Part shown: piece by piece, positions 22,176 through 54,903 of the stretch
Numbering within the stretch: the first letter of the stretch is position 1
How the letters are laid out: each line of letters begins with the position of its first letter
Assembly: GCF_963675165.1 (NCBI RefSeq)
Contig: NC_087377.1
Location: 9,565,122 to 9,629,121, forward strand
From: Halichondria panicea
Lineage: Eukaryota; Porifera; Demospongiae; Suberitida; Halichondriidae
Direction: 5' to 3'
DNA length: 64,000 nucleotides
The notes under the pieces: generated by a model
What the model saw: only the letters and a program-made list of their open reading frames with translations
What the model was told of the DNA's origin: nothing
Database searches by the model: none
Program-made: the position numbers and the translations under genes

Positions 22176-25100
22176 TCATCCACTCACCCCTTCGCTGGCT
22201 GGAGGAATCACATCCGGACCTCCCTTCTTTTTGGAGGACCTCTTGGGCTTGTCCACCACAGCGTAAGTGTCTCCAGAGACAGCGGTCTCGTGCTCAATCG
22301 TGCTGGGATCCTGGGTAGGAAAGACAAAGCAGTAGTGCATAATAAAAAGCGGTCAGAGTAATACCAAAAGTTCATACACTCTTGGTAATATACACAAAGC
22401 AGTATTCACAAATGGTTCACAAAACAACGCTGTAATTAACTTATACCTGAGGCTTAAACTTGCAGCAAGTGCATGTACTTTACACATACCTGATATAGAG
22501 CTTCTGGTGGAGTTGGCTTTGGTTTTGTGTTTTTCTTGCCCTTTATATCGACCATGGTGTACTGGTCCTCAGTGCCTGGAGCTGCCTGGTGCTCAATGGA
22601 TTTGGGGTCAGCATACAGGGAGTCAGGTGGTGGGGGGGATGAGGTACTTTCACTGTAACGAATAAACACATGGTTAGAATAACTACCAGAGCAGCATAAT
22701 TCCCACAACTCTCAAACAGACATAACATACGTTAGTTTCTCAGAATCTCTTGGTTTTGACTCGCGATCAGAATCTGTGTTCGTCATTGAGATTTCAATAC
22801 AGTTATGTTACATGAAAAAAATTTAACACACGAAAGAAGACAAGAAAGCCAAATTTGTAGAAGCAACTCTTGCTATAATTATGCATAATACGTTTTATTT
22901 ACCTTGTTGGCAGCAACACATGTAGAAGAGCACGCCCACACCAAAACCAAACAGGAACATGAGGAAAATAACGGCCAAAATTGCCCACCATTTTTCTGAA
23001 AGAAATTAAGGACAACACTATATTTTTTTGCATTCATGCAATTCACTTGCTTTCTACAAGTCCGTTGAGGAGAGAGGTCAAGTATCGAGCTGTCAGCACT
23101 CCACAGATAATTCCAATTGCAAAAGCCAGTGCCAGAATAATCACCACAATCAGCCAAACAGCAACTGCAGAAAGCACTTAGCACAATCCTCAACTCATAC
23201 GTAACTTACATGTGCATAAGTTACAATACACACAACTTACACACGCATGATCTCATTCCAGCTGGTTCCCAAGTTCCACCAAGACACGTGATTTGAGGTG
23301 AACCGATCAATTCATAGATAGCCAAGGTACAGCTCAGAGTAGCAGTGGTGATGTGAGACACCGTGCCATTAGTAACCTCCCTGTCCAGCTGCATGGACAC
23401 TCCACTGCCCATGAATGGCGAGAGGGCACTCACAGGGCATGTGTTAAAGTTGAGATTAGTCTGAGTGTCAATTATAATCCCATTATACATCAGAGTTGCA
23501 TGATAACACAGGTTAGTGGATGAAGCCACGGGTGCACAAGCCGAACGAGGCATCAGTTGTATGGTGGATGTGCTGAAATCTGACAAGTTTCGACAAACAC
23601 CATTTCCTTGTTCAAACCGAACAATGAAGTTTCCACTTTGCTCAGAAGCACAGTTTTGACCGAGAGAGAACGTGAGACAATTCATTGTTTCTAGTGTACT
23701 ATTATCAACAACAAAAGGAGTAACTATAGGAGGATAGAATACAGTTACATAACACGAGTCCTCATACTTAAGCTTACCAAAAAATCCTTCAGATACTTCA
23801 CGGCTTGTTCCAGCCACATTAGTCACATTCACAGTGAAAGTGTACACATCATTCTCAACTGTGTCTGTGAGCTGGTAGGATAAATCAGGAACAAATACTG
23901 CACTGCCACTGAGACCCCCAGCTGAAGTGTAGGTTATGGTAGGTTGGGTATTTAGGGGAGGAGTCAACTGAGCAGCCGGGTTACTGCTGCTCTGCACCTG
24001 TGACGTATATAATTTATGAATAATTAGACACCACTACTATTTCATGTAAGTAATCATTCACTTACTCCCTCCATTAAAGTCCATGATCCACTGATTGGCA
24101 ATGACGGATTGGAACAGACAACGGATCCATTGGGTTGAGTTAGTACAGGGGCTGGAAAAATATAAATAAATAAAATGCCAACTGTCTGCATGGTGTTCCA
24201 CTCACATGCTATGTTGAACATCACAGAAACATCGGTGTTGTTCAGCACTCCTGGACACACAGCACTGGTAGCCACAATACTGACAGTGTGAGACCGGGTG
24301 TAGCTCAATCCAATCACAGTGATGCTGTTGTCAGTGACAACCACTGTGCCACTACCTCCAACCACACTGGCAGAAATAGCGACCTCTGTCCCAAGCCTTC
24401 CGCTACTGCTGACCAAGAATCTGAATCGTCCAGTAGTTGAGTCGCCCACCGAATATTCCATACTATCAACAGTTGGAGTGGAAGGAGGACCTGCATGAAG
24501 TGAGAAAAATGACATAAATTGACCATTAAATGTTCACCTGCATAATAGATCATGGTTAAAGATTGCACTAAGGTCATTTCAACTTAATTACATGCGACTC
24601 TCTGGCTCCTACAATTATACCGGCTTTCCTGGTCCATAAAATGAAAGTCCGTAAAGTATCCTTAGGATGGCCTAATAATAATTATACATTATGGTATGAT
24701 AATCTCACCAATAACTTGTATAGTCAAGTTTCCAGCTTGAGGATCAGCTGATAGACTACCAGCATTACAAGTCACCACAGCACCATTCAGTGACTGATCA
24801 ACTGGCAACACAAGAGTAGACGTCCTTGTGGGTTGATTCATAGCACTGACCATATTAATGGTGAATGTTCCACACAGGAGGTCAGCTGGCGTGGTAGTGT
24901 GGGGAGCAATGGCAGTGCACCCTATGGGAGCATCAATTTCCCAACGAGTCACCTCAACACCGTCATGAGAACAGGTTAGGCTGACGGTAGTTCCTGAACA
25001 CACTAGTAGGGACCCATCAGTAACATTGACACCACCGATACTGACTTCTAAACTGCTCACAGCATCTGCATCATAACTGATTTACAATATAATTATACTG

Positions 25101-25237
25101 TTGCATTACCTGCGCCTTTTTGGTGAAGGCCTAACAACACAACGAAGCAAATCTGGGAGAGAACACAACATAACACAGAACAGCTTTGTAAAGTAGGCTA
25201 AATTTACATTACTTACATACACAGGTACATTCTTCAT
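22176..25237 (-). CDS. Receptor 1: Ig/FN3/sushi transmembrane receptor, intact
   Basis: Twelve exons on the minus strand: 25237-25217, 25152-25110, 25065-24709, 24490-24206, 24151-24066, 23997-23778, 23723-23241, 23164-23051, 22995-22903, 22773-22731, 22652-22490, 22310-22176. They total 2043 nt, 680 residues, with no internal stop; every intron is GT-AG except intron 8, which is GC-AG (A|GCAAGT). Residues 1-21 form a signal peptide (MKNVPVY then ICFVVLLGL). 22-140 is Ig-like (VSLTCSHD...TRWEI...VVTCNAG). 141-235 is FN3-like. 338-498 ends in a sushi-like module (ATLSC, SPQITCLGGTWEP, RSC). Two hydrophobic segments follow on separate exons: VAVWLIVVIILALAFAIGII and ILAVIFLMFLFGFGVGVLFY. The tail (568-680) has tyrosines in LYADP, QYTMV, LYQDP and TYAVV. 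A cell-surface recognition receptor signalling through phosphotyrosine is inferred. GTGAGT just before the stop could permit an alternative 3' exon. Confidence 0.9.
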
Positions 25238-25525
25238 TCTTTCAGTATAGATCTACTGAAGAAAGTCTGGATCATGTCTCAAACTAAATTCTAGATTGTA
25301 GATCTATACTGAGACAATTATAACTTAATTATAATCTATAAATATAATTTAGATCTATTATTAATTTTGATTGATGTAATTTCAGTTATAAATTGCTTGG
25401 GGGTTTTTCAGGCTGGGTTTTTCAGGCTGGAGCTAAGCGGTTGTGCATATGCTAAAGATACAGATATACCATGAAAGCAAGCAGTGTATGATACATCTAG
25501 ATAGACCCTGTACAAATCAGTGCTA

Positions 25526-26489
25526 ACAGTGGTTTTTTTCCATACTTATATATGAGCACTGCAACCACAATGTAGTAAATATAGGCAGTATTTTGGTTAG
25601 CTTTTAATTAATTGTCAGTAACAAGCCAACAAAAGCAATCTTACATGGCCGCAATCCCTTCTATACTCGCTAAATTTTTAGTTGAACAGTAATTAACTCC
25701 TCATATTTCGTCTGACTATAGTGATTGCGATGGTACCTCAGTAACTTGTTGCTTGCTTCAATGATATGAGCCGGGCTAAAACAGGGAGCTGAGGGCCTGT
25801 ATTTACATTTTATCCGGGTACAACTATAATTATACCGCTGCATATAAAGAAAGGAGTTGCTCGAGATTGCATTTTTTCAAAAGCATATACAGGGCTGTAT
25901 CCAGGATTTTGGATCAGGGGGGGCAAATTGAGCAAATTAAAAATGTAGGAGGGGCTAAGTCATCAGAATTATAGCAGAATCTGCCAGATCCTAGGGGGGG
26001 GGGGGCGAATTACCCCCCCTCCCCTCCCCCCCTTAATGCAGCCCTGCAATAAATGCTGTGCATGCAGTAGTACATGTAAACATCCCACTGTGAAAGTCTG
26101 CAATCCCAGACACTTATAGTCGTAAGATATCGGTATCTTTGACCTTTTAATTTGTGATGTGTGGGTGGTGTGGGTGGACTAAAATAACAATAATTAAAGT
26201 CTATTTGTGAGTTTGACCTTCATGAAGTTGTCATAGCTTCGTCATACTTTACTGAAATTCAAAGTTTTATATACCATTGGATTCCTTGTTAAAAAGCGCT
26301 TCTATATCCATATGCTGTAGAGCTGGTAAGCTCCAACCAGCTAAAAGTTATGTAGAAGTCCCAGGGAATACTTGCCCATCACATAAAGCATAAACGAAGC
26401 CATGATTGACCACATAACTTCCGGGTCGAACTCAACACAAATAGACTTTACATTGTGGTTGCAGTACAGAGTGTATGGAAACCACTGTA
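25526..26489. mobile_element. Element with ACAGTGGTTTTTCCATAC ends (copy 2)
   Basis: Left end ACAGTGGTTTTTTTCCATAC and right end GTATGGAAACCACTGTAG are inverted, each followed inward by GCAACCACAATGTAG or its complement. It aligns with 10395-11040. A CAGGGCTGTATCCAGG element is nested at 25890-26046. No transposase frame is visible. Confidence 0.75.
25890..26046. mobile_element. Nested small element with poly-G interior
   Basis: CAGGGCTGTATCCAGGATTT at the left and TGCAGCCCTG at the right, with long G and C runs inside. It interrupts the host element between two segments that are contiguous in the 10395 copy, so it inserted later. Related ends (CAGGGTGTCATACAGGATTT) occur at 26981 and 48499. 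Confidence 0.65.
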
Positions 26490-26655
26490 GATTCTGTGGC
26501 TATAGTTACTTGATAATAATTTAATTTCTTCTCTCAATATAATTACAAATGCATAGGTTCTCTGCATGTATTGTCATATTCACGGAAGTCATATTTAACA
26601 CAGCCTCATATAATTATTGTTTACTGAAATAATCTGAGATGATGTGAGCATAGTT

Positions 26656-27295
26656 TACAGGGTTTTGCAGAATTCTTGCAACAGGGCTAAACAGACACAG
26701 CAATGACTTCCATATATGGAAGTCAACTGCTGACTTATAATAATATTATTATGCAATGGTCATCCTGAAATGTTGATGAGACAAGGAGCTGACAAAAGAA
26801 ATTGCCAGAGGAGATTTGGTTAATAATACAATAATTATAAGACCTTCTGTCTTCACGCTTATCAATATCAGCCAATACCACTGTTTGGAGGGTGTTTCGT
26901 TTATCAACCTTATGAATGCTTACAACCTTATGAGCTGATGCTCTCTGGACATCTTTCAATTCAAATAATTATACACATACCAGGGTGTCATACAGGATTT
27001 TGAATTAGAGGGGATTTTGAAAAGTCACCAGAACATTTAAAAAAAGGTCAACAGTTATTTTAATACCCTGCCAGCTATGGACACTCAGTCTTACGACTGA
27101 GTACCTGAATGCAAATTTTAGGGAAGGGGGGGGGGTTGGAGCCAGAGGGGGATAATCATATATCCCTATATGCTGCATATACAATATACATGTATACACA
27201 ACATTTTTTTTATAGTCAGCAGTTGACTTCCATATAATTATATGGAAGTCATTGCAGTGTTTAGCCCTGTTGCAAGAATTCTGCAAAACCCTGTA
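26656..27295. mobile_element. Inverted-repeat element with about 85-bp ends
   Basis: TACAGGGTTTTGCAGAATTC at 26656 continues through TTGCAACAGGGCTAAAC and ATGACTTCCATATA to CAACTGCTGAC, and the complement runs 27215-27295. The interior has no recognised transposase. A CAGGGTGTCATACAGG element is nested from 26981 to about 27170. Confidence 0.8.
26981..27170. mobile_element. CAGGGTGTCATACAGG element (nested copy)
   Basis: Starts CAGGGTGTCATACAGGATTT and carries G-runs plus GGAGCCAGAGGGGG at its right, matching the better preserved copy at 48499-48704. The right end is decayed. Confidence 0.6.
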
Positions 27296-27311
27296 AAAGT
27301 CAGTATAATAG

Positions 27312-27660
27312 TGGTGCATGGTGGTACTGTGACTGATGGGGCCTTACAAGTATGTCTAGACACTACCGTCAGCTAGCCTCACCGGTACTCATGACATCAC
27401 TGGCGATCTGACTCGTTGGGTGATTGGTACTGCCATAGAGTGCTCTATACACTCAGCTACTCACACTACCAACTCTACTCATCCGATGCCCTGCATGTAT
27501 GGAGCATTTATCATTAATATGATCAGTCTCTGAATCAACCCACACTACATGAGGATGTCTATATACTCGTGTGTTGCTAGTTGATCAATCACTGAACTTG
27601 TTATGTTGGTGCACTGACCGATCGATCTGATCCCCAAGCTGGGAACTTCACTATACTGCG
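27312..27660 (+). pseudogene. Relic of a receptor Ig-domain exon
   Basis: GGTGGTACTGTGACTGATGG, GGCGATCTGACTCGTTGGG, CCATAGAGTGCTC, CACACTACCAAC, TCATTAATATGATCAGT, TGAATCAACCCACA and CCCCAAGCTGGGAACTT match, in order, exon 3 of receptor 2 (41472-41832). Insertions and stops destroy the frame (for example GTCAGCTAGCCTC against GTCAGCCTC). No other exon of the family was found next to it. This is a fourth, decayed member of the receptor family lying between receptors 1 and 2 in the plus orientation. Confidence 0.85.
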
Positions 27661-28496
27661 CTGCTACTGCTGCTACCAGCGCTGCCATGCAGTGAAGACA
27701 ATTAATTATCTACAAGGGAAATTTAAGCGATCTGGTGAAAATTGCAATACAAACATGTACAATTAGATACAGTATACAAACTCTTGTAATACAATCATGT
27801 ACTCACTGCATAATGGGACGGTCGATCACTTGGTAATTAAGGTCATGCAGTATAGTGTTTAGTTAAAATATTGCGCTTTACACATCATGGGTCAAGCTTT
27901 CCATAAAATCATAAAATCTCTGATATGGAAAGATGTGTGGCATACTAGAATTGACTTGGTTCATGTAGTTACCTTCTGGGTAAACTGGAGGATTCTTTAG
28001 GTTTGAGTAGGGTCACACATCTATAATAGCACATGTAGTGTTGGTGACGCTCACTGACTGTCTTGGTGATGTTCTTGAAGTTACCTGCGACGTTAGACAA
28101 ATGCTTGAAGGATCGATATGTTTTGCTCTGTACCGCAACCGAGAGAAAGTGAACCACACCTACATAATCGACACTCAGCAATCAAAGTATAATGTACTAA
28201 CAAAAGTAGAGTTACAAACAGACACTATAGTTATATATAGCCTCATAAAATTAAATGTTTTGTTTAACCTACAGGAATAAAATTCCACCTGGCCTATAAT
28301 GATACACTTACGTGTACTAATGATTACACTATAATAGTAAATAGAAATGAAAAAATAATAAAAAACTGCAGGCCACCGACAAGCTTATGAGAAGAACCTC
28401 ACTTTCAGAAGAGCTGATCATGTATCATAGCCGGGTGAGGGCCCCCTAACTCTATACAATCTGTGATAAGCACATGCCCTCCTCTATAAGTACGCC

Positions 28497-28690
28497 CTCG
28501 AGCTTTGGGACACTATAACACATAGATACCTCATGCCCATTATATCTAGATCCCAAAACCTATTGGCTACTAGAAATGCACTAGCTTAGCAACAGTCAAA
28601 ACAGTCAACCTAGCAACTGCATCATTTCTTTTGACCGTATTTTATCTTATTGACCTGTGTGACAAAGAACAGAAAAAGGAGAGGCTGCGA
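28497..28690. repeat. Dispersed repeats shared with 9340-9553 and 1378-1470
   Basis: 28497-28640 is an inverted match to the 9340-9553 segment (CTCGAGCTTTGGGACACTAT, ATAGATACCTCATGCCCAT, ATCCCAAAACCTATTGGCTA). It runs straight into 28632-28690, which matches 1378-1470. Confidence 0.6.
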
Positions 28691-28789
28691 AGGAGCCGGA
28701 GGCTAGCTGCAACCCTTTTGGAGGCGGGCCACGCCCATCTAGCTACTAATTGATGAACATTTGCTGCATGCAGGCAGAATCCAGAACAG

Positions 28790-29000
28790 TTAGTTATCTG
28801 GGCAGAATCCAGAACTCAATAGTGGGTAATGATCGACCATGATTGTTGTTAAAAACGATCTATGCCAAAAAATCAAGCTAAAGATTTATAATGGCTGCTG
28901 CATCAGTAGAGCTTTGCAGCTCTCTTCTCACTGTTGCAGCTACCAATAGCTAGCGTTCTAGTGCAGAACTAACTACTAAGTAGAGTAGCAACACTCTGTG
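28790..29000. repeat. Dispersed repeat shared with 49205-49400
   Basis: AGTGGGTAATGATCGAC, ATGATTG, TTAAAAAC, GCAGCTCTCTTCTCACT, AGCTACCAATAGCTA and AGTAGCAACACTC occur in the same order at 49205-49390, and the tail occurs again at 52575. Non-coding, origin unknown. Confidence 0.65.
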
Positions 29001-29068
29001 GACAAGCTCCTACTACTCTCGAACAAAACCAATCTAGAGCTTCTCTCTTCCATTCTAGTTCTGTTACA

Positions 29069-29226
29069 GAGGTTTTCAGGTAGGTTGAGGGAATGCTTCA
29101 GAGTGTAAAGTTACTCATGCATGAATTACTACATACAGCACAGTACAGCAGTAATTTAATTATAACTTATGCATGAGTAACTTTATGCTCTAAAGCATTC
29201 CCTCAACCTACCTGAAAACCTCTGTA
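29069..29226. mobile_element. Foldback element, GAGGTTTTCAGGTAGG ends
   Basis: GAGGTTTTCAGGTAGGTTGA to GTAACTCATGCATGA is mirrored on the right, with arms of about 65 bp around a short AT-rich loop. A half copy is at 9127. Confidence 0.8.
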
Positions 29227-29956
29227 TTATGTTACTAGACAAAGCATCTAGCTACAATAATTTTTATGTGTATCTTCTTGTAAATGACAATAAGTAAATG
29301 TTGCATGTAGTTTGATAGCCCAGAGCAATCTATAGTACCGGGTACTATCTGCTAAATACACTCAAATGGGATCTAATCATGTTATATTACATGTGCATCT
29401 CCTTGTAAGTGACAATACAATGTACATAGCCTAAAGCATTTAATAGAGCACGTTGCCAAGTGCTCTATTAGAAATAGAGCACATAGCAACAATAAGCAAA
29501 AACACTCAAGTGGGATCTAAACAAAGCAGATGACGCATTCAAACTTTTAGAGCAAATCTTACGGTGTTATATTATTATGTATCGAATAATTACTAGAATG
29601 TTTTGCGAGCATCAAACATAATTATGCGAACTTTGCAAGGGTTGATCACTTCGCAACAATAAAATCACAAAACCTAAATTATAAAATTAGTACTGGTAAA
29701 TACACACCAGAACGCAGTAGTTAGATGACTGGCAATTTGTCGTACCTTGCCAGGTTATTATCGTGATTGGCTTTGTAGCGTACATCACAAAGCATGTAGT
29801 ATCCCTTTCCAGGTCAATCGCACAATCTGGAACAGTTCCATCACTTTAGTTTGCATCTGAGCCCAACCCACCAAATTAGCTTGATGTTATCACCCCCCCC
29901 CCAATGAAGTGTCAATGGCTGTGCACAAACTAATCATCGATTTTATGCCTTGCTGC

Positions 29957-33298: not shown

Positions 33299-34787
33299 CT
33301 ATCAATTAATGGAATAACTGTCACATGGACCCAATCATATGCTTGTGTATGGACACGAGATCCAACAGAAAGAAATGAAGTTGCTGCTGCTTGTGGTTTA
33401 CAGTATGATTTCCACCTCACTATAGCTGGTCTGATTATCAAAGAGGCTAAACTGGAAACTGTGCTCAAGTGAGATATGTTTATAATAATAAGATTATTAT
33501 ACCTTTTCTTATATTGATCATATCACAAGTATACCATAATTATGCATGAATGCTTTGCTTCATCAGTGAAGTTGAGGAGATGTTGCAAGACCTGAAAGCT
33601 GATCATGATAAGCCTCAGCCTGAACTACTCGGAGACATTCATAAACTTAAGACAATGAATGAAGCAGTGATCGAGGGAGATATTTCACCAAAGCTATCCC
33701 ACAAAGAAGACTCACAAGGGTAAATTGCTGGCCATGCAGATTTCAAAATTGATCGTTCATATTATTTCTCATATTACTCCATGTTATCTGCTTTACAGGA
33801 GTCCTGCCGCCATGGAGGAGATGTTGCTTCATACCGAGAAAATTGACGAGGCAACTGCTAAAGTGGAAGCTGCTGGGGGCCACGTTCTACTCCAACTTGG
33901 TCATAACCTCTTGGTTGCAAAAGTTCCCTCTCATGCAGTCAATCAGAATAGCTTCATTCAAGCTTCAGTCCATATTCAAAGCTCAGCATCAGCGGAAACT
34001 TTGACCCATGTTAATGCCTACCGGAAACCACAACCGACGGCTCAAATGTGGACAGAAAAAACGGCTCCAATGGCCTTTGAACGAGAAGATTCAGACGAAA
34101 ATTTTCATGGAGATTCACCCTACAGCCTAACCATGACTGGAAAGATTGCTGTTGTTATTCTTATTGCTTCTGGTCCTGGTAGCTTAGCAATAAGCGATAA
34201 AGAGAAGAACAAGATTTTAAGTGAATGCCTATAGTAGGGCTTAAATTCTGGTCAAATCAAACTGAAGCTAAAGAGGTTCGTTTATCGTTTGCTATGTATT
34301 ATGGGAAGGCAACAATCAGTGCTCCCAACCCAACCTCTTGCTCTAGCTATGCATCTTGCCACAACGTGTTTGCTGATCCTACACTCTTGTTTTCCCAACT
34401 GGTAAAACTGGAAGGGATAAATTAGCACAATAAAAACTATGCTCGTGCTGATGGTGCTTTCCTTGCTTTTTTTTCTAAGTACAGGCAAAACCATTTTGCG
34501 TATGCCGTAATGGCTATTTTGGTGGCGGACCTACATACATGCAGTACAGCAATGACGGTTGGGGGACCGATCGGATTGACAGTGTTTTCGCTCATGAAAC
34601 TGGACATGTTTTTAATGCTCCTGACGAATACAATTATTGTAGGTGCACCCCACTGTATGGCAGGGGAAGCTGCACTGCTACAAATGTCAACTGCAAGACC
34701 TGCACTTCTTCTCAAGCTAGCTGCATTATGAGAGGCAGTGCTTGGAACCTTTGCGAGAACACCAAGAAGCATGTGGGTTGGTGCTAA
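33299..34787 (+). pseudogene. HExxH metalloprotease-like gene, broken
   Basis: Three exon-like segments join in phase: 33299-33468 (donor CAA|GTGAGA), 33567-33719 (acceptor CATCAG, donor GG|GTAAAT) and 33799 onward (acceptor TTTACAG). The first two encode a helical region (EVEEMLQDLKADHDKPQPE). The third starts SPAAMEEMLLHTEKIDEATA and ends at a stop at 34234. Sequence then continues in other frames: KFWSNQTEAKEVRLSFAMYY (from 34240), and from 34539 a frame with FAHETGHVFNAPDEYNYC. HETGH followed by a nearby Asp-Glu is a zinc-protease signature (HExxH), and the cysteine-rich tail (CRCTPLYGRGSC, CKTC, SCIMRG) follows. At least two frame changes and a stop separate the parts, so the gene looks inactive unless undetected introns remove them. 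Exact peptidase family not determined. Confidence 0.6.
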
Positions 34788-41291: not shown

Positions 41292-44200
41292 ATGAGGATT
41301 GTACCTTCATATGTAAGAGATGTAACAAAAGCTCTGTGTTAAGTTTTGTTTTCTCCCAGATTTTCTTGGTTGTGTTGAGCCTTCACCAAAAAGGCACAAG
41401 TAAGTTAATTACTAACTGGTAAAAGTCCAGAAGCAAGGTACATATAATAGTTTAAATCAGTTGTGATGCAGATGCTGTGAGCAGTTTAGCAGTCAGTAGC
41501 GGTGGTGGCACTGTGATTGATGGGGGCCTCCAATTGTGTCCAGGCACTACCGTCAGCCTCACCTGTTCTCATGACAGCACTAGCGATCTGACTCGTTGGG
41601 AAATTGGTGCTCCCATAGAGTGTACTGCCATTGCTCCCCACACTACCAACCCAAGCATTGCTCTGTGTGGAAATTCAACCATTAATATGGTCAGTGCTAT
41701 GAATCAACCCACAAGGATGTCTACTCTTATATTGGCAAGTCACTGAGTCACTGAATGGTACTGTGGTGACTTGTTATGCTGGTGGTTCTACATCTGATCC
41801 TCAAGCTGGGAACTTAACTATACAAGTTATTGGTGAGATACTATTCTATCGTATAGCGAGTAATTTTCGTGTACATTATCAGGAGTACATTAAGGATAGT
41901 AAGCAACTACTATATACCGTATAGCGGGTATATTTCGAGGGTATATACCCCGGACAGAGTCAGACAACAATGGGTTTGTATGGGCTGTATAGTAGTTGCT
42001 TACTCTCCTTCATGTGCTGCTGATACCATAATTATAGTGCTCAAGAATCCTCAGAATAAATTTTCACGTTTGTTGTGTGTAATTGTAATTATTATATGCG
42101 TTTTAATGCTACTCACCAACAGCTTTTTGGAGTTTCTCCTAGTTTTAATTTTTTTCGTTAACTGCCCTCGAAAAAATTGTGACATTTTGCACCTCACAAA
42201 CATTTCCTGCTATACTCGTACACGAAATGGTGCATCAAACGGAATCAGTAATACTTCCTTTTGTCACCCAGGTCCTCCTTCCACTCCAACTGTTGACAGT
42301 ATGGAATATTCAGTGGGCGACTCAACTACCGGACGATTCAGATTCTTGGTCAGCAGTAGCGGAAGGTTTAGGACAGAGGTCGCTATTTCTGCCGGTGTGG
42401 TTGGAGGCAGTGGCACAGTGGAAGTGATCGACAACAACATCACTGTGACTGGATTAAGCTACACTGGGTCTCACACTGTCAGTGTAGTGGCTACCAGTGA
42501 TGTGTGTCCAGGAGTGCTGAACAGCATCACTGTCGTTCCTGTGGTGTTCAACATAACATGTGAGTGGAACACCAAAGTTGATATTTTTTATTTATTTTTT
42601 CTCAGCCCTTGTACTGACTCAACCCAATGGATCCATTGTCTGTTCCAATCCGTCATTGCCAATCAGTGGATCATGGAGTGCAATGGAGGGAGTAAGTGAA
42701 GGATTACTTACATGAAATAGTAGAACTGTCTAATTATTCATAAATTATATACGTCACATGCAGGTGCAGACCAGCTTTTACCCAGCAGTTCAGTTGACTC
42801 CTCCCCCAATTGGCACACCGATCGTAACCTACACTTCAGCCGGGCGTAATGACAGTGCAGTGTTTGTTCCTGATTCATCCTACCAGCTCACGGACACAGT
42901 TGAGAATGATGTGTACACTTTCACTGTGACTGTGACTAATGCGGCTGGATCAAGCAGTGAAGTATCTGAAGGATTTTTTGGTAAGCTATTTAAATTTAAG
43001 TATGAGAACTTCTGCTATGTAACTGTATTCTTTCCTAGTTACTCCTTTTGTTGTTGATAATAGTACGCTGGAAACAATGAATTGCCTCACATTCTCTCTC
43101 GGTTAAAACTGTGCTTCTGAGCCAAGTGGAAATTTCATCGTTCGGTTTGAACAAGGAAATGGTGTTTGTCGAGACTTGGTTCCATCAGATTTCAGCACAT
43201 CCACCATACAACTGATGCCGAGGTCGGCTTGTGCACCCGTGGTTTCAACCACTTACCTGTGTTATCGTGCAACTCTGATATATAATGGGATTATAATTGA
43301 CACTCGGACTAATCTCAACTTTAACACATGCCCCGTGACCACTCTCTCATCATTCATGACCAGTGGAGTGTCCATGCAGCTGGACGGGGAGGTTAGTACT
43401 AATGGCAACGTATCTCACATCACCACTGCTACTCTGAGCTGTACCTCGACTATCTATGATTTGATTGGTTCACCTCAAATCACTTGCATTGATGGAAGTT
43501 GGGAACCAGCTGGATTGAGATCATGCATGTGTAAGTTGCGTTTAATCTTAGGAACTGAACGGTCTAATTTTTAGAAGCTCTAATTGCATATGCATGTACC
43601 TCCAAGCAATTGGTTCATTGTTTGAGATTGGCTAGTGATTACTTTTCTGCAGTTGCTGTTTGGCTGATTGTGGTGATCATTCTTGTAATACTAACACTGG
43701 CTTGTGCAATTGGATTTGTCTGTGGATTGCTGACAGCTCGATGCCTGCCCTCTCTTCTCAACGGACTTGCCAAAAGTAAGTGAATTAAAATTTATGGTTC
43801 TGTTACAACAGTGAACAAACTCTCATATTTTATTTCAGAGAAATGTTGGGCAACTTTGGTGATTATTCTTCTTGTCTTCTTGTTCTGTTTCGGTGTTGGG
43901 GTGCTCTTTTACATTTGTTGCCGTAAACGAGGTAAAAAGAACAGTTTTTGCTCCTAGCTAGTAGGAGGTGGATGCTTACAGATTTTACCATAATAATTAT
44001 TGTATCTGATGCATGCTGGCCTGTGCTTATACATGTACTTCCTTATAAACGCACAATCATATCATAGACTCGAAACACAAATCAAAGTTGGACACAGTTC
44101 CCGCTGAAACAGGACTCAGTCTGCCAGTTGCGATATACGAAGAACTAGAAGACATACCAGACCCCCACACTCAGCGCAACCTCGTTTATGGCAGTGTTCA

Positions 44201-44297
44201 ACAGTCAACTGACCCAAGAAAACCAATATACGAGGACATTAAACCAGTCCCCCACACCCAGGGAAACGTTGCTTATGGACATGTGCAATTCAATTAA
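41292..44297 (+). pseudogene. Receptor 2: Ig/FN3/sushi receptor with two lesions
   Basis: Ten exons: 41292-41312, 41360-41399, 41472-41832, 42272-42559, 42606-42691, 42764-42980, 43039-43530, 43653-43775, 43839-43931, 44068-44297. All junctions are GT-AG and keep the phases of receptor 1. The total is 1951 nt, one more than a multiple of three. The extra base lies in the Ig exon near 41735, where GTCACTGA is duplicated and the frame hits a stop. A second lesion is TAA at 43104-43106, where receptor 1 has a Gln codon. Everything else is open: signal peptide (MRIVPSY, IFLVVLSLHQ), Ig, FN3-like, sushi-like, hydrophobic segments WLIVVIILVILTLACAIGF and LVIILLVFLFCFGVGVLFYI, and a tail with IYEELED, LVYGSVQ, IYEDIKP and VAYGHVQ. 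The ectodomain follows receptor 1; the tail follows receptor 3. It could be a recent pseudogene, an allele, or contain assembly errors. Confidence 0.88.
41847..42010. mobile_element. MITE relics and hairpin inside receptor 2 intron 3
   Basis: TATCGTATAGCGAGTAATTT at 41849 and TACCGTATAGCGGGTATATT at 41915 are both left-end sequences of the TACCGTATAGCGGG family without right ends. GATAGTAAGCAACTACTATA (41895) is mirrored at about 41985. The receptor 1 intron at the same place lacks them, so they arrived after the duplication. Confidence 0.6.
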
Positions 44298-44299
44298 TT

Positions 44300-45235: not shown

Positions 45236-45239
45236 ATTA

Positions 45240-45431: not shown

Positions 45432-45721
45432 TTTATTTGGACACATACTCACCAAAATAATTAATTGATAAATCGATGACAGTTAAAATAATTTATAGGC
45501 TTCTTTGCCTTTTTTTTTTTATTTTCAGCTTGTTTGTAGGAGACAGATTCCGTTAACATTATGACTGATTAATGACACCTCAATAACAACTTTTAAACAT
45601 TAAAAATCTTTACCTGGTACAAGGAGAGTGTGATGATAAAATTATTATACTTAAAATAATGATGATCCAGTCATAGTTTATTGGTGTAGTGATGTAAGCT
45701 CCAGGTGTCTTGCAAATTCTT

Positions 45722-46680: not shown

Positions 46681-46684
46681 TGTA

Positions 46685-47060: not shown

Positions 47061-47367
47061 GTATATGCACACTGCATGGACATTAGGTCGAACACAATAT
47101 TCTAGGTGCTACATTTGTTCATTAAAGCAAAGGCCGTGAAGGTATACACTTTTCCTAATATTGTCCTGTGCAGGTGTTCGAGACCCACAAATGTAACGTT
47201 TATATCTGTGCTCGCAAGTTGTGTACATTTTTAAGACTAGAGTTTTATACCTATGAACTAGCTTGTAGTGATAATAATATATAGTGCATGAATAACAGGG
47301 AGGATAAAAAAACTGACACTAATTTTACGCTAGCTAAATATCATAATTCATTGTATGTCGCTTGGAG

Positions 47368-50300
47368 CTAATGAAACTGCACATGTCCATAAGCGAGGTT
47401 CCCTTGAGTGTGGGGGTCTGGTTTAATGTCCTCGTATACTGGTCCTCTCCGTTCAAGTGGAGCCTGTAATTGTTGAACATGGCTGTACGCAATGTTTTCT
47501 TGAGCCAGGGGGTCTAATATCTCTTCGTATATCACATGTGGCGGTGAACTCATTTCAGTCCCAGTTAATTTCTCAGACCTCCTGCAATTATGCAAAGGCA
47601 ATCCAATCACATGCTAACAAAAAAGTTGTTGAATTACAATGCTTAAACAAGTATATATAGTCAAATGCGTGGGCAGGAATATGGTCTAATCAGTAAGGCT
47701 TCTGTTGACGAACATGGAGATATAATAATAACAGCTGACAATAATTATACATTGAACACCACGCACAGCAGTGAGGACACTCACAAGTACTTAGTTAACC
47801 ATAGATAAAGGAAGAGAGGGATTGGAAACGAAGTGGTGCACGTGATCATTTAACATTAGTTCTACACAGAGGCCTCAAAAACTATCTCAGGACTATTGTT
47901 TGCCGGGTAACTTGCTCGAAATAATTATGTTTCCTCGAGACATCATCTCCTCAGCAATTTATAATACGCCTATTCTGTGAGCCATGTATGGTACTAGCTA
48001 ATGACTGACCACACCCAGTAGAGACGCTTCAAAGTGGGTATTTTATTGCTATAACGTGTAAACTAGAAGTAAGCTGCACAGAATGAGCACATTTGCTAGT
48101 GGTGTGCAGAAATAGACATCAGCTTGGCTACCTTGAAAGCCACGCCCCTTACAGATAAGGCTGCTTAAAACAGCCTCAATTGAACCGCAGGGAAGAGCAG
48201 ATGTTCATTTTTGAGGGTACTTTCATTTCCAATCCCTCTCTTTCCTTTATCTCTGGCTTAACCAACCAATAAAGCTGATAAAATTAAGGCAACTGCAAAT
48301 GAGACAGATCATAGTTTCCCACCGTGGATGTGTTGTGATTGTTATATGAAATTCATTGATGAAATCGAATGTTTATAATGATATTCATGGTATTGAATAA
48401 TGATCCAGCGAACACATAATTCACAGAAGTCTCTGATTAAAGTACACCCTCATTTGGAGTGCATGGCCTAACTATAATGGCCTAACTATATTATATTCCA
48501 GGGTGTCATACAGGATTTTGAAGTGAGGGGGGGGGGGGCCTAAAAGTTACCATCAACTGTATTTTCAATATACCTTGTTAGTATGTTACATATAATAGCT
48601 GGCAATGCTCAGTTATACAACTATATATATAGTACCTGAATGCAAATTGGGGGGGGGGGGAGGTTGAGCCAGAGGATCCCCCTTCTCCCTGTATGACACT
48701 CTGGCTATATATTCAAGAAACTAAGCACAGCACACGCTAGCTGCTATATGCACTATTCCTCCCCAGATAGGAATACAGAGAGTCTGCAGTTCTTACGTAT
48801 TAACCAGAGAAATATGGCTCTAACAATTTGGTTGGTTAGACATGGGGGAAGAGCTAGTCTGGTAAATGTCTTAAGAGTATAAAATCATGCACTGGTCTCA
48901 CGACTTACTCACCCCTTTGGATCTTCATCTTTGACTGATCCTTCATACTTTTTCTTCTGAGTTTCTATACAGTATACAGTGAAGAGGATTATGATAAAAA
49001 CGTAGTATGGCAGCTTACCTATCTGATTATATAGCGTACCACAGGCGTATAAATAAGAATACCTACCCCCACTCCTAAATATAAGTGAAAGCACTGGGGG
49101 CGCTGATGCCTCGGTGTAGGTACCAAAGCTACATAACATAATAGCTAGCTTTTATACACACATTGATTATAATTGTACATGTTATCATGATGATTTTGCT
49201 GCATGTAGAATCCAAAAAATCACAGGGAAACTCAAGAGTGGGTAATGATCGACGATGATTGGTGTTAAAAACAATCGATGCCAAAAGCTAAAATTAATGG
49301 CTGCAAGTCAGCAGAGCCTTGCAGCTCTCTTCTCACTCTTGAAGCTACCAATAGCTAACTACTGAGTAGCAACACTCCGTGAACAAGTTTTGCTACACAC
49401 TCTTCTGAAAAGGCTGCAATGGTAAGCAAAACGAGGCATAACTCGAGAACGAAGCTTTATTTTGAAAATCCACAAATACGAATCCAAGAAAACATGACTA
49501 TAAGCCTATAGAAACTATTACTAGCACTTTATTGATCAGTGAGAAGCTAGAGAGTAATAGCTAGACAGACAAGCAATTGTATGGGTACACAATGTACCTT
49601 TCTTGTTCTTCACACAGCAGTAGCCTACGAGAATACCAATTCCAAGGCCAAACACGATTATAAGAAGAATGACCAACAGTAGAGTGCCACACTTTCCTAC
49701 GTTGAGTATACACGTACATACTTGATCTGTAGCGATATCAATTGACTTACCTTGTTGAATTCCTTTTACGCATATCCTACAAAAACGAGTGAGCAATATT
49801 CCCACAATGATTCCAATAGTAATGGAGAGGAAAACCGCACTTATACTGACAGCTATAACCCAACTTGGAACTATGTGAAAAGAGAGTACAGTTAACAAGT
49901 AATCTATAATACCGTACAGTGCCTTCAGCTTTGAGAGAAAATTTAACCACAGAGTGAGTAGTTGTACTTAATTGTATCTCAAGATTGGAACATTTCTAAG
50001 AAATTGTGCTGATACCATTGTGTAGGTGAATAAATAAGCTACAACCTTATTTGAAAATATTTCCCCAAAAGTTGTTGTAGTGGGAAATCATTTTAGGTAA
50101 AAATGGGGGTGATCGTATAATATATGTGTAACATGAAATATCTCCGGAACTAAAGTATTTCAGGACAACTTTTTTGTATCAAAAGATAGAACATTTATTA
50201 ACAATTAATGTGCAAAAACAATTAGACCTTAGCCGACAAATTTGCTTGAGTTCCATCGCTAAGCGAAAAGGCACCTAAAATATCCCATAAATGAGTATTA

Positions 50301-53300
50301 ATCAGTACGTGTACTTATGTAAGCTATACGTAACCATGCATGCATATGTTAGCTAAACTATTCAGGAATGTTGTGCCAAAGTTCCATACCTTAGCCGAAA
50401 ACAATTGGTCTTTTCCATCGCTAAGCGGTTGTCCACTATAGAAAAATGTTGGTGTTTTATAAACCACCACATACCCACCACCTTTGGTTGCCATGGAAAT
50501 GTTTTTGGATATGTTTTAGATAATTTGTTCACCAATACAATGGTATCATCATATTTTCTTAGAAATGTTCCAATCTCAAAATATTTACATTATGTACTAA
50601 CACGTACCAAATTGCGTTTATTTACTCTATAGACTAAAGGCACTACTGTATAGCGCTTTATTTTTGAGGAACTAAAATTCGCAAGTGCTCAAAATAAATA
50701 AAACTCTGAACATTTAGAGGTTTTTTTCTTGTTTCTCAGATGCCATGTCCAATCAGATTTGCAATAATGCAATCACACGATGTGACGATGACTAAAACTG
50801 GCCAGCTATTATCTTCTACTTTCGTACAGGTTTAGTGAGATTTGAATTGAACTGAAATAATATTTTTATGATGCATAAGTCAGCAGTGGCGGATCTGATT
50901 CTTGAAAGGGGGGTAGGTTCCAATTAGGCTTGTTCACAATATCCTACTCACATAGTATAGTATATATACCCACTCTACACTCACGTGGTATAGCTTCACA
51001 CCGAGCAACAGTTCCACTCCATTCACCATTGCTCAAACACTCTCTGTATGGAGAGGAGTCCATTGAAAGTCGATGACTGCCATCCATACAGAAGGGTATG
51101 GTGAAGTGTTGGGATCCAGGGACTGTCTCATTGTAGCACAAACGTCCATTAGGGATCGTGATACCACCAACAAAACCATCCAATAAACACACCTCTGAGG
51201 ATTGTAACACACTGTGACTTGACAGATCAGCTACATCACATTCTGTATGTGTGTGATATTATAATCAAAATCAACTTTTAGACTCACCTGAGCGTAAGAT
51301 TCCCATCACGTTAAATGATAGTACTCCTTGGTTGAAGTAAACGGAATAACAATAAGTGAAATTAGGTTGTAGAGATGTCAGGACAACATCCAGAGTATCC
51401 CCAGCCATGCCGTTATTAGCTGATATCAGAGTGTTAGCATCACAGTTAGGTGTTATTCCGTAGATCACTGTCAAACCGGTCAAGCCTCGGAAACCACTGG
51501 TCAGACGAGCGGACACAGTGGCACTCGAACCTACTACAAGAACTGTTAGAGTCACAAATGAAGAGATACTGGCTGGCGCTGCAAAAAAATAGTCAATAGT
51601 TAGTTAATGGATGGACAATATCAAGCCACCTTGGAAGGATGTATTCACTGATTGACCACCTCCAATTCCATTGGACACGGTAACAGTCACAGTGAAATCA
51701 TTGCTGGGACGATTATCACTAGTGAACTCCGTCTGGTACTGACACAGGGTAGCATTGCAGTTGCCTGTGAGAACAACTTGTGGATCACCGACGGTTCGTA
51801 CAGAGTAAGTAACTGCAGGAGACAAGCCAGGAGCAACCTCGACAGGACTCTGCATGCATGTGTATGGAAAAGTGTTAGAGCACTGGCTCACAGCCAAGCA
51901 GGTAATGATACGGTATATACATGAACATGGAAAAGCCTAGTGGAAACTACTTAAACTATTTGAAGGCTATGACGAAGCTTTAAAAAGGGCAGTGGTGCAT
52001 AGTCAGACATAGATTTAGGACTATAAGATCACAGCAGTCAGCAAAAAGAAGCCTAAAATGTTATACAAATAAGGCACCTGACTCTGGGAGTCCTGGACCG
52101 TCATTTGGATCACATGCAGCAGACCAGGCCTGGAGTGTTTAAAGTAGGACACTAGGCTGACATGCAGTGGTACCGGAGTAGGCTCATAGTAGCCAGCAAA
52201 GAACCCTGGAGTCTCTTCCCATGAAAATATCCACGTGGCTGTAATAGTGCGTCGAATTAAAGCTATAGCTCTATGGCCAACGTGCAAATTCAAACTTCTT
52301 TGCTTTTGCTCGCTTTTATTCGACAACGAAGCTTTAACACATCAAAATCTAAACTAATAACTTGCTATGTGAAGCCTACTGTAGAAACTGCGCATGCGCT
52401 TATGGAGTCAAAAGCAGACCTCTATACGCTTATATTCGAGAATGCGCCTATAATACAGTAATTTTTGAGCCTCACCCAATAAGCTACCTATAGCTAGAAA
52501 GTGAGTGAGCTAGAACTAGATCTATATCATGCTATTATCATATAATTATATTATGCTACAGTTTATTGTACATTCATAGAGTAGCAACACTCCATGGATA
52601 AGTTTTTCTACACACTCATTTGAAAATTGAAAAGGCTGCAATGAATTCCGAGTAAGCAAAACTAGAGAACCAAGCATTGTTTTGCAAATCCACGAATGAA
52701 AACATGACTAGAAGCCTATAAAAACTCTTAGTTGCACTTCATTGATCCTTGAGCAGCTGTATAGCAGTCTACACACACACACAAACACACTATCGTATAC
52801 CTCGCTTGCGCATGCGCACCGAGGCATAAAAAGGGTAAAGTCCACCTCATCTAAGTCTCCATTTTCTTAGCATGATCAGACAAGGTAACAGCTTGCCCAA
52901 AGAGTCCTTCCAGATTGATATCACCAGCTATATATAGACTGTACAGCTCATAGATAAACGAACTTAGCTGAATCAATTCTGACTAATTGGAAAAGCTTCA
53001 ATTCGAGTACAAAAAACCTGCAGTTGAGCATCCGCTTAAAATAAAGATACGCTTATAATCGAGTAAGCGCTAATAATCTAGTTTCTACGATACCCATGCT
53101 GTAAACGCACCACTACAGCATCCAGGTGCAGGCTCAGAAATCACAAACAGACAGACAGACAAACCACTATACCTGTGTCCGCCCACGCACCTCGGGTAAT
53201 AATTATACTGAAGAATGCTACCAAGTTAGAGAGATACTTACCACTGTTGGGAAGGTGACAGTGATAGAGTCGAGGCGGTCACCAGAATACACTGCCAGCA

Positions 53301-54903
53301 CACTGACATCACCAGCAGCAGGGGGAGATGGTTCTATGGACAAATGTAATGAGTCACAATGTCACACTCACCCTATAGGTAGCTCTCCCTCACCTGTTAA
53401 GTTTAGCATTACAGGAGTGCTGAAGCTTCCAGTCTGACCACCACACAAGTCATAGTTGGCCCTGACCCTAACAGAGCAGTTCTGTGGAACAGTCCAACCA
53501 GAACAAACTCTTGAAGTGCTGGAACTGACTGAACAAGAGCCTCCACAATCTGAGACGACATCATATGAGAAGGAGGTTCCACAGCTGGTTGACTCCACCC
53601 AAGATACGGTGAATGTGAACACACCACCAGCTGTCACCATCACGTTAGTGGGTGGTGGGGGTGGACCTGTGCATGAGGGTTAAAGGTCTAGACTGTTGTC
53701 ACACTGTGATGCTGCTTACCTGCTACTCGCAAGGTATCACTGCCAATCAGAGTAGTATCATCTCTTGAACACATTACAGTTTGTCCATCCATGTTGGCAC
53801 TGATAGTAACTAACAGTTCTGATGTATAGCAAGGTTCTACTCCACTAGTGTCCACTAAAGTACCATTACCGCTAATAGCCCCACTTGTACAAGTTGCAGC
53901 AGCAGTCCCTCCAGAGTACTGACCATGGAGTAATATCACACTGTTGGCTGGAGGACAATCAAAGGCAGTTCCTGACCACACCGTAACAACTCCACCGACC
54001 ACAGTACAAGTGTAGGTCTCCATATCACCAGGGCAGAAACACAGTCTTCCATTGGGAAGAGTGGGGGGGACTAAGATGTCAGTGGCTCCATCACCTAGAT
54101 TTATGACAGTCTATTAATCAGTCTCCACTGCTTTTATCACATTTACACTATCGTACTTCTTTGAAATAAGGTGGCCTACCGTAAGACCTCGATTTAAGGC
54201 GACCCTCCAAATATGCGACACCCAGGAGCTTCAGCAATTTTCTGACCTCTAAAAGTAGCGACAGCTGCATTGACAATTATTATTTTTTAATGTCGCGTTC
54301 TAAATAGAGGTAAATGTAGCCACTCCCTAGCCTTGATTGTAGCCCACTGGAAAATCAGTGTTTTTAAGCGGCCTGAAATCGAGACAAGTAGACTCTGTAA
54401 AGTTACCTCCAATTAGATGCGACCCTCTAAATATGCGACACCAGGACTTCAATATAATTTTTCAACCTCCAAAAGAAGTGACCTCTGGCTTTGTAATTAT
54501 TAAAAAGTGTCGCTTTAAATCGAGATCTTACGGTGTATGTTTTCGAATGCAGTGCACTAAAAGGAGATTTTTTTTTTACATACAATTCATTTTCTATAAG
54601 TAATTGCTATGTAGGAAAAATATATCATAGGTATGACCATGCAGATATAATTATGACGTACAAAACTTGAACACATGTACATGCACAAAACAAATAAACA
54701 TGGAGTCCAAGCTTACTTGACTTAATAAGCAAAGTCCCCAACAGTATTAAGCAGGTAACAACGATCTGTGAATTGACAAGAGTGAGTCAAGTAGATCTAG
54801 CACTGACATTATTATAGCTATAGATAATTATATCGAGAGACAAAACCTATTTCATAGTATTGGCCAGGTAGTAGATCTACAGGGCCTTTACCTTTGCTCT
54901 CAT
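47368..54903 (-). CDS. Receptor 3: Ig/FN3/sushi-type receptor with YEEI tail
   Basis: Exons on the minus strand: 54903-54892, 54765-54717, 54094-53720, 53666-53394, 53333-53242, 52238-52078, 51849-51630, 51578-51288, 51242-50985, 49870-49751, 49696-49598, 48964-48913, 47581-47368. Splice sites are GT-AG and phases agree except between 53242 and 52238, where one phase step is missing: either a small exon was not found or a 1-nt lesion exists. Order: signal peptide (MRAK, IVVTCLILLGTLLI), Ig-like exon (METYTCTVVGG, TVMCSRDD), FN3-like exon (FTFTVSWVES...CSVRVRANYD), two or three further modules (DFTVTVTVSNGIGGG; NFTYCYSVYF), a sushi-like end (YRECLSNGEWSGTVARC), two hydrophobic exons (WVIAVSISAVFLSITIGIIV and LLLVILLIIVFGLGIGILVG), a short basic exon, and a tail with VIYEEIL, IAYSHVQ, VYEDIKP and LAYGHVQ. 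Introns carry several MITEs. Inferred cell-surface receptor with Src-type SH2 docking sites. Confidence 0.83.
47799..48256. mobile_element. CCATAGATAAAGG element in receptor 3 last intron
   Basis: CCATAGATAAAGGAAGAGAG at the left is mirrored by CTCTCTTTCCTTTATCTCTG at the right, both followed inward by GGATTGGAAA. The ends resemble the larger element at 55374-57560. No ORF. Confidence 0.75.
48499..48704. mobile_element. CAGGGTGTCATACAGG element, best-preserved copy
   Basis: CCAGGGTGTCATACAGGATT and CCCTGTATGACACTCTGG are inverted ends; the interior contains long G runs (GGGGGGGGGGGG) and GAGCCAGAGGATC. It lies in the last intron of receptor 3. Superfamily unknown; related to 25890 and 26981. 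Confidence 0.75.
49205..49540. repeat. Dispersed repeat in receptor 3 intron
   Basis: The left part matches 28790-29000. The right part (GAGTAGCAACACTCC, ACACACTCTTCTGAAAAGGC, AAAACATGACTA, AAGCCTATA, CACTTTATTGATC) matches 52575-52755. Both latter copies lie in receptor 3 introns. Confidence 0.6.
49955..50420. repeat. Dispersed repeat, pair with 17030-17320
   Basis: Second copy of the AAGATTGGAACATTTC...CCCCAAAAGTTGTTGTA...ATATCTCCGGAA repeat, inside the intron before the first hydrophobic exon of receptor 3. It is extended by a partial re-copy of CCTTAGCCGAAAACAATTGG near 50390. Confidence 0.7.
52575..52760. repeat. Dispersed repeat copy in receptor 3 intron
   Basis: GAGTAGCAACACTCC...AAAATCCAC-type block matching 49370-49540 in the same orientation. 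It occupies the intron where the receptor 3 reading phase is unresolved. 52760-53230 shows no further recognised feature apart from GCGCATGCGCACC and a short CA run. Confidence 0.6.
54177..54536. mobile_element. MITE, TACCGTAAGACCTCGATTTAA family (copy 2, complete)
   Basis: TACCGTAAGACCTCGATTTA at the left and TTTAAATCGAGATCTTACGG at the right are inverted ends. The body matches 40545-40815. It sits in intron 2 of receptor 3. Confidence 0.8.

Follow-up and report, generated by a model that had tools for sequence, protein, structure and literature searches.

Paired-receptor-like genes in a chromosome-clustered family of the sponge Halichondria panicea, with putative exchange of ectodomain and tail cassettes

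Paired receptors whose ectodomains are kept alike by gene conversion are known from vertebrates. Here, we compare with them a locus of the sponge Halichondria panicea, a stretch of 64,000 nucleotides (C1:9565122-9629121, contig NC_087377.1 of NCBI RefSeq assembly GCF_963675165.1; hereafter the window) that contains three receptor-like genes, R1, R2 and R3. As described in the available part of the source, the Siglec-11 and Siglec-16 genes lie head-to-head about 9 kb apart, about 3 kb of their ectodomain DNA is homogenised by conversion, and one partner is often a nonfunctional allele (PMC5701461). Of the Botryllus receptors, uncle fester has three transmembrane segments, again as given in the available part of the report (PMC12065747).

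The three genes are probably members of a large family of Ig/FN3/sushi-type receptors clustered on C1, paired-receptor-like in their organisation, with conversion of Ig exons and exchange of cassettes. The original prediction, made from the letters of the window, had near-identical ectodomains connected to different tyrosine-rich tails, as in vertebrate paired immune receptors. This observation was partly confirmed and the paired-receptor interpretation is partly supported: shared ectodomains with exchanged tails are found family-wide, whereas the R1/R2 example is weak, R2 being broken and not the closest Ig relative of R1.

A literature search, with subscription journals outside its scope, found no earlier report on the locus. 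A protein database search, which required sharing of short words and scored about 8000 best candidates per query, returned only H. panicea proteins and two open reading frames (ORFs) from ENA, which is weak evidence that the family lacks relatives outside this sponge. The two ORFs (P0008 and P0009) lie on a contig of 563,052 bases and are R3-type exons translated through introns; the contig may come from a different assembly, either of this sponge or of a close relative, and would be useful for allele comparison.

Ectodomain classes and tail types across the family

The sponge's own genome (131,455,214 bases, 39 contigs) was searched with the R1 ectodomain, the R1, R2 and R3 tails, the R3 ectodomain and a C-type membrane-tail exon; the copy counts are lower bounds. 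The survey of family copies found a chromosome-clustered family: close relatives are all on C1, and weaker matches to the R3 ectodomain occur also on C8 and C13. In single-query searches at least 12 A1 exons (E<1e-6) and at least 17 B places (E<1e-7) were located, all at C1 8.6-10.04 Mb, and at least 24 C exons (E<1e-8) all lie on C1. The C-type membrane-tail search gave 136 places, 135 of them on C1; besides the 24 strong exons, 37 weaker places fall within 8.6-10.06 Mb, many of which are second matches in B tails. A further 74 weak C-like matches (25-41% identity, individually uncertain) lie on C1 at 11.39-13.75 Mb. There, a gene at about 11.6 Mb (C1:11607001-11612600) combines sushi-like repeats with a single membrane segment and a VYEEV...AYGPL tail, features that place it in a predicted large cousin family occupying those 11.39-13.75 Mb.

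Genes are labelled G or H (the latter R3-type), with A, B or C as a suffix for tail type. Exons E1 and E2 encode the signal peptide, E3 the Ig-like domain, E4 the FN3-like domain and E7 the membrane-proximal, sushi-like part; TM1 and TM2 are hydrophobic. Among the RefSeq models, P0001 is LOC135344285 isoform X2 (R1), P0003 is LOC135344313 isoform X2 (R3) and P0002 is the model of G7; P0006 agrees in letters with H5C, and the tail of P0007 is identical to that of H2A.

Both main ectodomain classes are joined to all three tail types. The R1-type ectodomain carries tail A in R1 (P0001) and in G1, whose A3 exon falls beyond the sequence analysed, tail B in G4 and tail C in G7 (P0002) and G2; the R3-type carries tail A in P0007, tail B in R3 (P0003), P0004 and P0005, and tail C in P0006. 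RefSeq models represent five of these six combinations, and the sixth, R1-type with B, is found in G4, which reads open through the exons found and has the signal-peptide exon pair. That the tail exons might belong to other genes is countered by the predicted RefSeq models, which join them to these ectodomains. P0007 is 56% identical to P0001 over membrane and tail (otherwise matching it in a tail-internal repeat at E = 0.002 and in scraps at E >= 0.05) and 61% identical to P0006 over the ectodomain (next match E = 0.02). Protein from tail exons A1 and A2 is 85-95% identical across five genes, namely the distant G16 and two each of the R1-type and R3-type, and a third ectodomain class, with genes at 8953730 and 9666306, likewise has tail A. 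The predicted gene structures show recombination of ectodomain and transmembrane/tail cassettes across the family, with three tail types on at least two ectodomain classes.

The trees came out discordant between ectodomain and tail for R1-type and R3-type genes alike. In the R1-type set (11 genes; G16 was left out as distant, and G17 has no E3 in the sequence analysed), the Ig exon tree has 6 tail-label changes against a shuffled mean of 5.6 and joins the head-to-head partners G1A+G2C and G6A+G7C with support 100/100. The Ig exon rejects a clade of C tails (log-likelihood difference, dlnL, 292; approximately unbiased (AU) test p = 3e-63) and one of A tails (dlnL 297) but not one of B tails (p = 0.12). 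In E7 the label changes number 3 against a shuffled mean of 5.7; the four C genes form one group (100/100), and the partner groupings G1/G2 (p = 0.001), G6/G7 and G14/G15 are rejected (dlnL 134-220, AU p from 0.001 to <1e-50). In the R3-type tree (eight genes, concatenated ectodomain), H1C+H2A and H3C+H4A are joined at 100/100, and both a C clade (dlnL 641) and an A clade (dlnL 604) are rejected.

Fourteen divergent neighbour pairs between 8.6 and 10.06 Mb were compiled by hand from strong tail matches, and 11 of them were examined. Five of the 11 (G1/G2, G6/G7, G16/G17, H1/H2 and H3/H4) agree in 95-98% of their DNA across the Ig exon or the greater part of the ectodomain and differ in the tail, synonymous divergence (dS) being 0.00-0.05 in the homogenised parts of the four pairs computed. 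In G6/G7 an ungapped tract of 617 bp, introns and upstream DNA included, is 98.7% identical, against 76.8% for the rest of the ectodomain; in G1/G2 the ungapped tract is 352 bp at 96.3%, against 81.8%. dS was computed by the Nei-Gojobori method (NG86) on 8-9 genes per exon, from exons without frame change, with the R2 E7 stop skipped and E5 and some broken copies excluded. For G1/G2 it is 0.041 in the Ig exon versus 0.212 in E4, 0.334 in E6 and 0.593 in E7, and for G6/G7 0.035 versus 0.509, 0.439 and 0.846, respectively. This contrast rejects purifying selection as the cause of the Ig likeness in the two pairs. Together with the sharp tracts, it indicates that the likeness of the Ig exons is kept by gene conversion. 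Between non-partners, mean dN/dS is 0.66 in the Ig exon, 0.45 in E4, 0.48 in E6 and 0.33 in E7, none above 1.

The remaining pairs are alike over longer stretches. H1C/H2A are 97.3% identical over 1565 bp (dS 0.00-0.03 in four exons), with homology stopping about 51 bp past E7a; H3C/H4A are 97.3% identical over 1889 bp (94.2% over 2723 bp if upstream DNA is included; dS 0.02-0.05 in four exons), with homology that runs out some 47 bp beyond the sushi exon and short of the membrane exons. G16A/G17B are 97.3% identical over 1580 bp, up to a point within the first tail exon at which the G17 tail switches from type A to type B with a frame change. For these three whole-ectodomain pairs, recent duplication would fit as well as conversion. 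The window itself provides a case at a distance: R3 and the C-tailed H5C, about 438 kb away, have a dS of 0.034 in the Ig exon versus 0.24 in the other three exons, so that the R3 Ig exon appears to have been recently exchanged with a C-tailed gene.

Receptor genes of the window and their tails

All three paralogs have the plan that had been read from the letters, namely signal peptide, Ig-like, FN3-like, further modules, sushi-like, two hydrophobic exons and a tyrosine-rich tail, and R1 and R3 are also RefSeq genes. R1 runs on the minus strand from 25237 down to 15617, as two signal-peptide exons, E3-E7, two hydrophobic exons, a juxtamembrane exon and A1, A2 and A3. It is independently matched by the RefSeq model LOC135344285, isoform X2 of which has an internal Met start and both hydrophobic exons. 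The tail had been described as three exons; it has four, the last lying about 6.4 kb outside the span then considered. With that exon included, 7 of 12 R1 introns are phase 1 by our count, and the statement that most introns are phase 1 thus holds as counted for R1. The features are as follows, in window positions.

25110-25237, minus: R1 signal-peptide exons, E1 (25217-25237) and E2 (25110-25152); gene model
24709-25065, minus: R1 E3, Ig-like, with the C..W..C pattern; gene model, cysteine/Trp spacing
24206-24490, minus: R1 E4, FN3-like; gene model and P0001
24066-24151, minus: R1 E5; gene model and P0001
23778-23997, minus: R1 E6; gene model and P0001
23241-23723, minus: R1 E7, membrane-proximal/sushi-like; gene model, sushi under cut-off in the relative P0002
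23051-23164, minus: R1 hydrophobic exon TM1, with a GC donor; gene model, hydropathy, present in P0001
22903-22995, minus: R1 hydrophobic exon TM2; gene model, hydropathy, present in P0001
22731-22773, minus: R1 juxtamembrane exon; gene model and P0001
22490-22652, minus: R1 tail exon A1, with LYADP, YTMVD and ALYQ; gene model and P0001
22188-22310, minus: R1 tail exon A2, with LYQ/DP split by the intron and DTYAVVDK; gene model and P0001
15617-15739, minus: R1 fourth tail exon A3, LTYADIDL...VEYSSVEHGSTS; P0001 placed in the window at 100%
27319-27656, plus: decayed Ig exon of the R1/R2 kind, situated between these genes; blastn identity 77% over 228 bp
41292-44297, plus: R2 pseudogene, R1-type E1-E9 and B-type tail exon (44068-44297); gene model, comparison with copies
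54717-54903, minus: R3 signal-peptide exons, E1 (54892-54903) and E2 (54717-54765); gene model and P0003
53720-54094, minus: R3 Ig-like exon; genome comparison, 95% of DNA and dS 0.034 to H5C
53242-53666, minus: R3 E4 (FN3-like) and E5; gene model and P0003
51288-51849, minus: R3 E6 (51630-51849) and E7a (51288-51578); gene model and P0003
50985-51242, minus: R3 sushi exon, isoform X2 lacking 16 residues at its start; gene model and RefSeq, Pfam Sushi above cut-off in the relative P0004
49751-49870, minus: R3 hydrophobic exon TM1; gene model and P0003
49598-49696, minus: R3 hydrophobic exon TM2; gene model, genome comparison
48913-48964, minus: R3 juxtamembrane exon, additional to the tail first described; gene model and P0003
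47368-47581, minus: R3 B-type tail exon, with VIYEEI, IAYSHV, VYEDIKP and LAYGHV; gene model and P0003

R2 is a pseudogene in this assembly because of a one-base length change in its Ig exon (41472-41832), which G4, R1 and G12 do not have, and an in-frame stop in its E7 (43039-43530). The stop is common to copy G12, which makes a sequencing error there unlikely. Exon for exon, R2 does correspond to R1 and its splice phases agree, with DNA identity of 84, 91, 94, 88 and 91% for E3, E4, E5, E6 and E7, a range that does not bear out near-identity; the R2 Ig exon is 99.7% like that of G4, 175 kb distant. A closest-pair relation of R1 and R2 in this exon was rejected, R2 being nearest to G4 and the sister relation failing the AU test; in the E7 tree their grouping is borderline (p = 0.046). 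R2 as an intact chimera was likewise discarded for its two lesions, and G4 was taken as the example instead. The R2 tail matches that of R3, as had been noted, at 89% of DNA over 66 bp. Local inverted conversion of the two tails, which lie 3 kb apart, is not supported, the R2 tail protein being 88-92% like those of G4 and G12 and about 66% like that of R3.

R3 runs on the minus strand from 54903 down to 47368 and agrees with RefSeq LOC135344313 isoform X2 except for one split codon and for 16 residues that the isoform lacks where the sushi exon begins; the ends of its E4 and E5 were placed one base beyond the predicted exon spans so that GT follows. Its TM2 exon shares 91-94% identity with those of G3, G5 and the copy at 9011197, and 94-97% with those of the A-tailed H2A and H4A, scored alone. 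This glycine-rich exon type (GLGIGILIG) is 91-97% identical among the copies so scored despite differing ectodomains.

The Ig-like and FN3-like assignments are putative. Pfam Sushi is above its cut-off in one of the six RefSeq proteins scanned (P0004, 26.7 bits versus 20.7; P0005 was outside the scan), under it in P0002, P0006 and the R3 exon, and not listed for P0001, P0003 and P0007. In the same proteins fn3 stays under its cut-off (best in P0007, 20.2 bits versus 25) and Ig gives only matches far below. The R3-type profile matches titin at E of about 1e-3, and the Ig-like exon has the C..W..C spacing.

The tails differ in their tyrosine motifs, the signalling meaning of which, as for the immunoreceptor tyrosine-based inhibitory motif (ITIM) or activation motif (ITAM), is general knowledge. 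A tails have LYADP, YTMV, LYQDP and YAVV, to which the last R1 exon adds LTYADI and VEYSSV, both ITIM-like (p = 0.02); the A tail of P0007 as modelled has no ITIM-like motif. Both B tails tested have four YxxI/L/V motifs. In R3, VIYEEI, IAYSHV and LAYGHV stand in ITIM-like context (p = 0.0006 versus 5000 shuffles), none using the T that the pattern also allowed at position -2; G4 has three ITIM-like motifs (p = 0.002), one of which uses it. The C tail has one, LAYGHV (p = 0.19 in G7 and 0.10 in P0006). Exons for SH2, SH2 and a protein tyrosine phosphatase (PTP) follow in this order at C3:8404573-8406287 (minus), the arrangement expected of an SHP-type reader of ITIMs, for which this is a candidate gene.

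Other genes lie near receptor loci. At C1:8630901-8637900 (minus; L038), a receptor gene whose B-like tail has four tyrosines has directly upstream of it an SH2 exon and another that by eye is PH-like, and a second SH2 exon is found near a second B-like tail at 8613183. The SH2 and PH-like exons resemble what we take to be a DAPP1-type adaptor duplicated with the receptor. In the window there are further ORFs:

34479-34784, plus: M12-type metallopeptidase-like ORF with HETGH; just under the Pfam cut-off
57737-58412 and 62677-63609, plus: retroelement-like ORFs, Integrase_H2C2 (one of two above cut-off) and DUF1759; Pfam
58821-59444, plus: ORF ending in a PHD finger; 36 bits versus 24
60417-60887, minus: DDE_Tnp_IS1595 transposase-like ORF; Pfam, 64.5 bits

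Mechanism and competing explanations

In the reading of the family as paired-receptor-like, gene conversion between inverted neighbours and ectopic recombination at exon/intron edges would keep the outer faces of the partners alike. Two or more receptors would then bind similar ligands and recruit different SH2 proteins. B and C tails would act through ITIM-like tyrosine motifs, a SHP-like SH2-SH2-PTP gene being present, and A tails through YxxP/YxxV. The receptors would act as pairs with balanced signals, and the ligand would probably be a surface molecule of another cell or a microbe. More tentatively, and at less than even chance, sponges could have evolved paired receptors independently, in a complex of several megabases that may hold a hundred or so related membrane-tail exons on one chromosome and in which conversion (of the outermost Ig exon) and tail exchange keep rewiring specificity to signal. 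On the same reading, the complex may be the receptor side of sponge self/non-self recognition.

Several observations weigh against this reading. Four of the 11 neighbours examined have different ectodomains: G3B/G4B, R3B/G12B and the two pairs for which it had been predicted blind that an A gene has its ectodomain in common with the divergent neighbour. The prediction failed in both cases, that at 9666306 on the assumption that the C tail at 9718720 goes with the ectodomain at 9710595-9712231; the A genes concerned are those of the third ectodomain class. G14A/G15C, the best pair by identity (89%), are not sisters in the best tree, although that grouping is not rejected (p 0.07), and R1A/R2B, although neighbours of one class, are rejected as sisters in the Ig exon (AU p = 0.0004). 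In R1-type E7, A and B clades are not rejected (p = 0.065 and 0.11), so that it is the Ig exon and the sharing of tails between classes that speak for A-B exchange within the R1-type. The A/C pairs, 7 of 14 (p = 0.009), are a modest excess in a hand-made list that has no A/A or C/C neighbours (p = 0.022); same-label neighbours, two, both B/B, versus 4.33 expected, give p = 0.15. With a fifteenth pair (8631150 B and 8749542 C, 118 kb apart) these values become 0.011, 0.018 and 0.11, respectively. Broken chimeras are frequent (R2, G12, G13, G14, the G17 tail, a late stop in G6), and no confident signal-peptide exons were located for H1C, H2A, H3C, H4A, G2C and G15C. None of the six tails tested has a canonical ITAM, and a relaxed pattern allowing V matches both B tails, which leaves the inhibitory tail type ambiguous. 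Finally, two membrane spans after a signal peptide would put the tail outside the cell in most A and B genes.

Both hydrophobic exons are strong (Kyte-Doolittle hydropathy 2.6-3.5) and occur together in the five A and B RefSeq models. The C models P0002 and P0006 have one, as does the A-tailed G16 between E7 and tail; the B-like-tailed L038 gene (about 8.631 Mb) has one in the tail reading frame, a second further upstream being possible. The 15 residues after TM2 hold 3-6 Lys/Arg in all but one of the nine A and B models, the exception being R1 with 2; two of these flanks are shorter than 15. The one-segment genes and these basic residues suggest cytoplasmic tails. Alternative use of the two phase-1 hydrophobic exons is our guess, a membrane hairpin being another possibility. 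The only charged residue inside a membrane segment, among those scored, is an Asp in P0004.

A role in self/non-self or microbial recognition would be compatible with these structures. That the receptors mediate fusion and rejection between sponges, like fuhc in Botryllus and Alr in Hydractinia, is a possibility we regard as unproven and rather doubtful. The architecture comes near to that of the Botryllus FcoRs, with Ig, sushi, transmembrane segment, ITIM or hemITAM tails and pairs, in the available part of PMC12065747; the multigene family is nearly confined to one chromosome in the searches made, and its outermost Ig exon evolves fastest (dN/dS 0.66 versus 0.33 in E7). However, the sponge candidate in the cited literature, as far as those texts were available, is the aggregation factor family (PMC12065747), and self and microbial ligands are equally compatible with the present evidence. 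To much the same, limited degree we would entertain microbial pattern-recognition receptors, each specificity having an inhibitory and a non-inhibitory version with the decoy logic of CEACAM1/CEACAM3. Vertebrate paired receptors have been explained in this way (PMC2832619, PMC5112662, parts available), and individual-specific receptor expression is reported in H. panicea, although the available portion of that report does not recognise this receptor family (PMC8242945).

Slightly less credible, at perhaps one chance among several, is an ordinary birth-and-death tandem family of adhesion or housekeeping receptors, in which unequal crossing-over and conversion act without selected pairing and shared Ig exons are a by-product. 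The many broken copies, conversion between non-neighbours (R2/G4, R3/H5C), the four neighbours without a common ectodomain and the mean dN/dS below 1 in the Ig exon would all fit it. It accounts less well for tracts whose ends lie at the Ig exon or short of the membrane part, or for G16/G17 within the first tail exon, with tails that still differ in type, for the lack of A/A and C/C neighbours, and for the same tail cassettes on unrelated ectodomains. That the tail exchange is a local pseudogene accident in a dead R2 copy, without wider meaning, is very improbable: R2 is indeed disabled, but G4 is open in the exons found, with the same R1-type ectodomain and a B tail, and RefSeq P0003, P0006 and P0007 show cross-class tails.

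Comparison with known receptor systems

If the paired-receptor signature is true of a sponge, the splitting of recognition and signalling by exon cassettes either arises repeatedly or is very old, and Porifera gain a concrete locus, C1:8.6-10.06 Mb, for self/non-self and microbe recognition. By analogy, the locus would work like paired receptors; it is not claimed as a member of the Siglec, CEACAM, FcoR or Alr families.

The Hydractinia Alr genes, compared by description, are also a clustered IgSF multigene family of a non-bilaterian, with 41 genes and ITAM/ITIM-type motifs (PMC11999971, PMC12065747). They have V-set/I-set domains, with no sushi mentioned in the available parts of these sources, and an allorecognition role is reported for Alr1/Alr2. 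The Botryllus FcoR/fester genes likewise form a large clustered family with Ig, sushi, a transmembrane segment, ITIM-like or other tyrosine tails and neighbouring pairs (available part of PMC12065747). In this chordate, however, the pairs join two different families and there are two C2 Ig domains, with no mention of FN3 in that part, whereas the sponge partners share one ectodomain. CEACAM1/CEACAM3 resemble the sponge genes in that the ligand-binding part is kept close by conversion or recombination and the cytoplasmic motifs differ (available part of PMC2832619), but they belong to another family and oppose ITIM/ITSM (immunoreceptor tyrosine-based switch motif) to ITAM-like motifs.

The closest working parallel appears to be Siglec-11/Siglec-16, which have head-to-head genes, converted ectodomain DNA and different signalling ends (available part of PMC5701461). 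The Siglecs have V-set/C2-set domains, bind sialic acid and combine an inhibitory member with an ITAM-adaptor partner, whereas the sponge locus has Ig/FN3/sushi ectodomains, several partners and three tails. The likeness between the two would thus be one of analogy, not homology.

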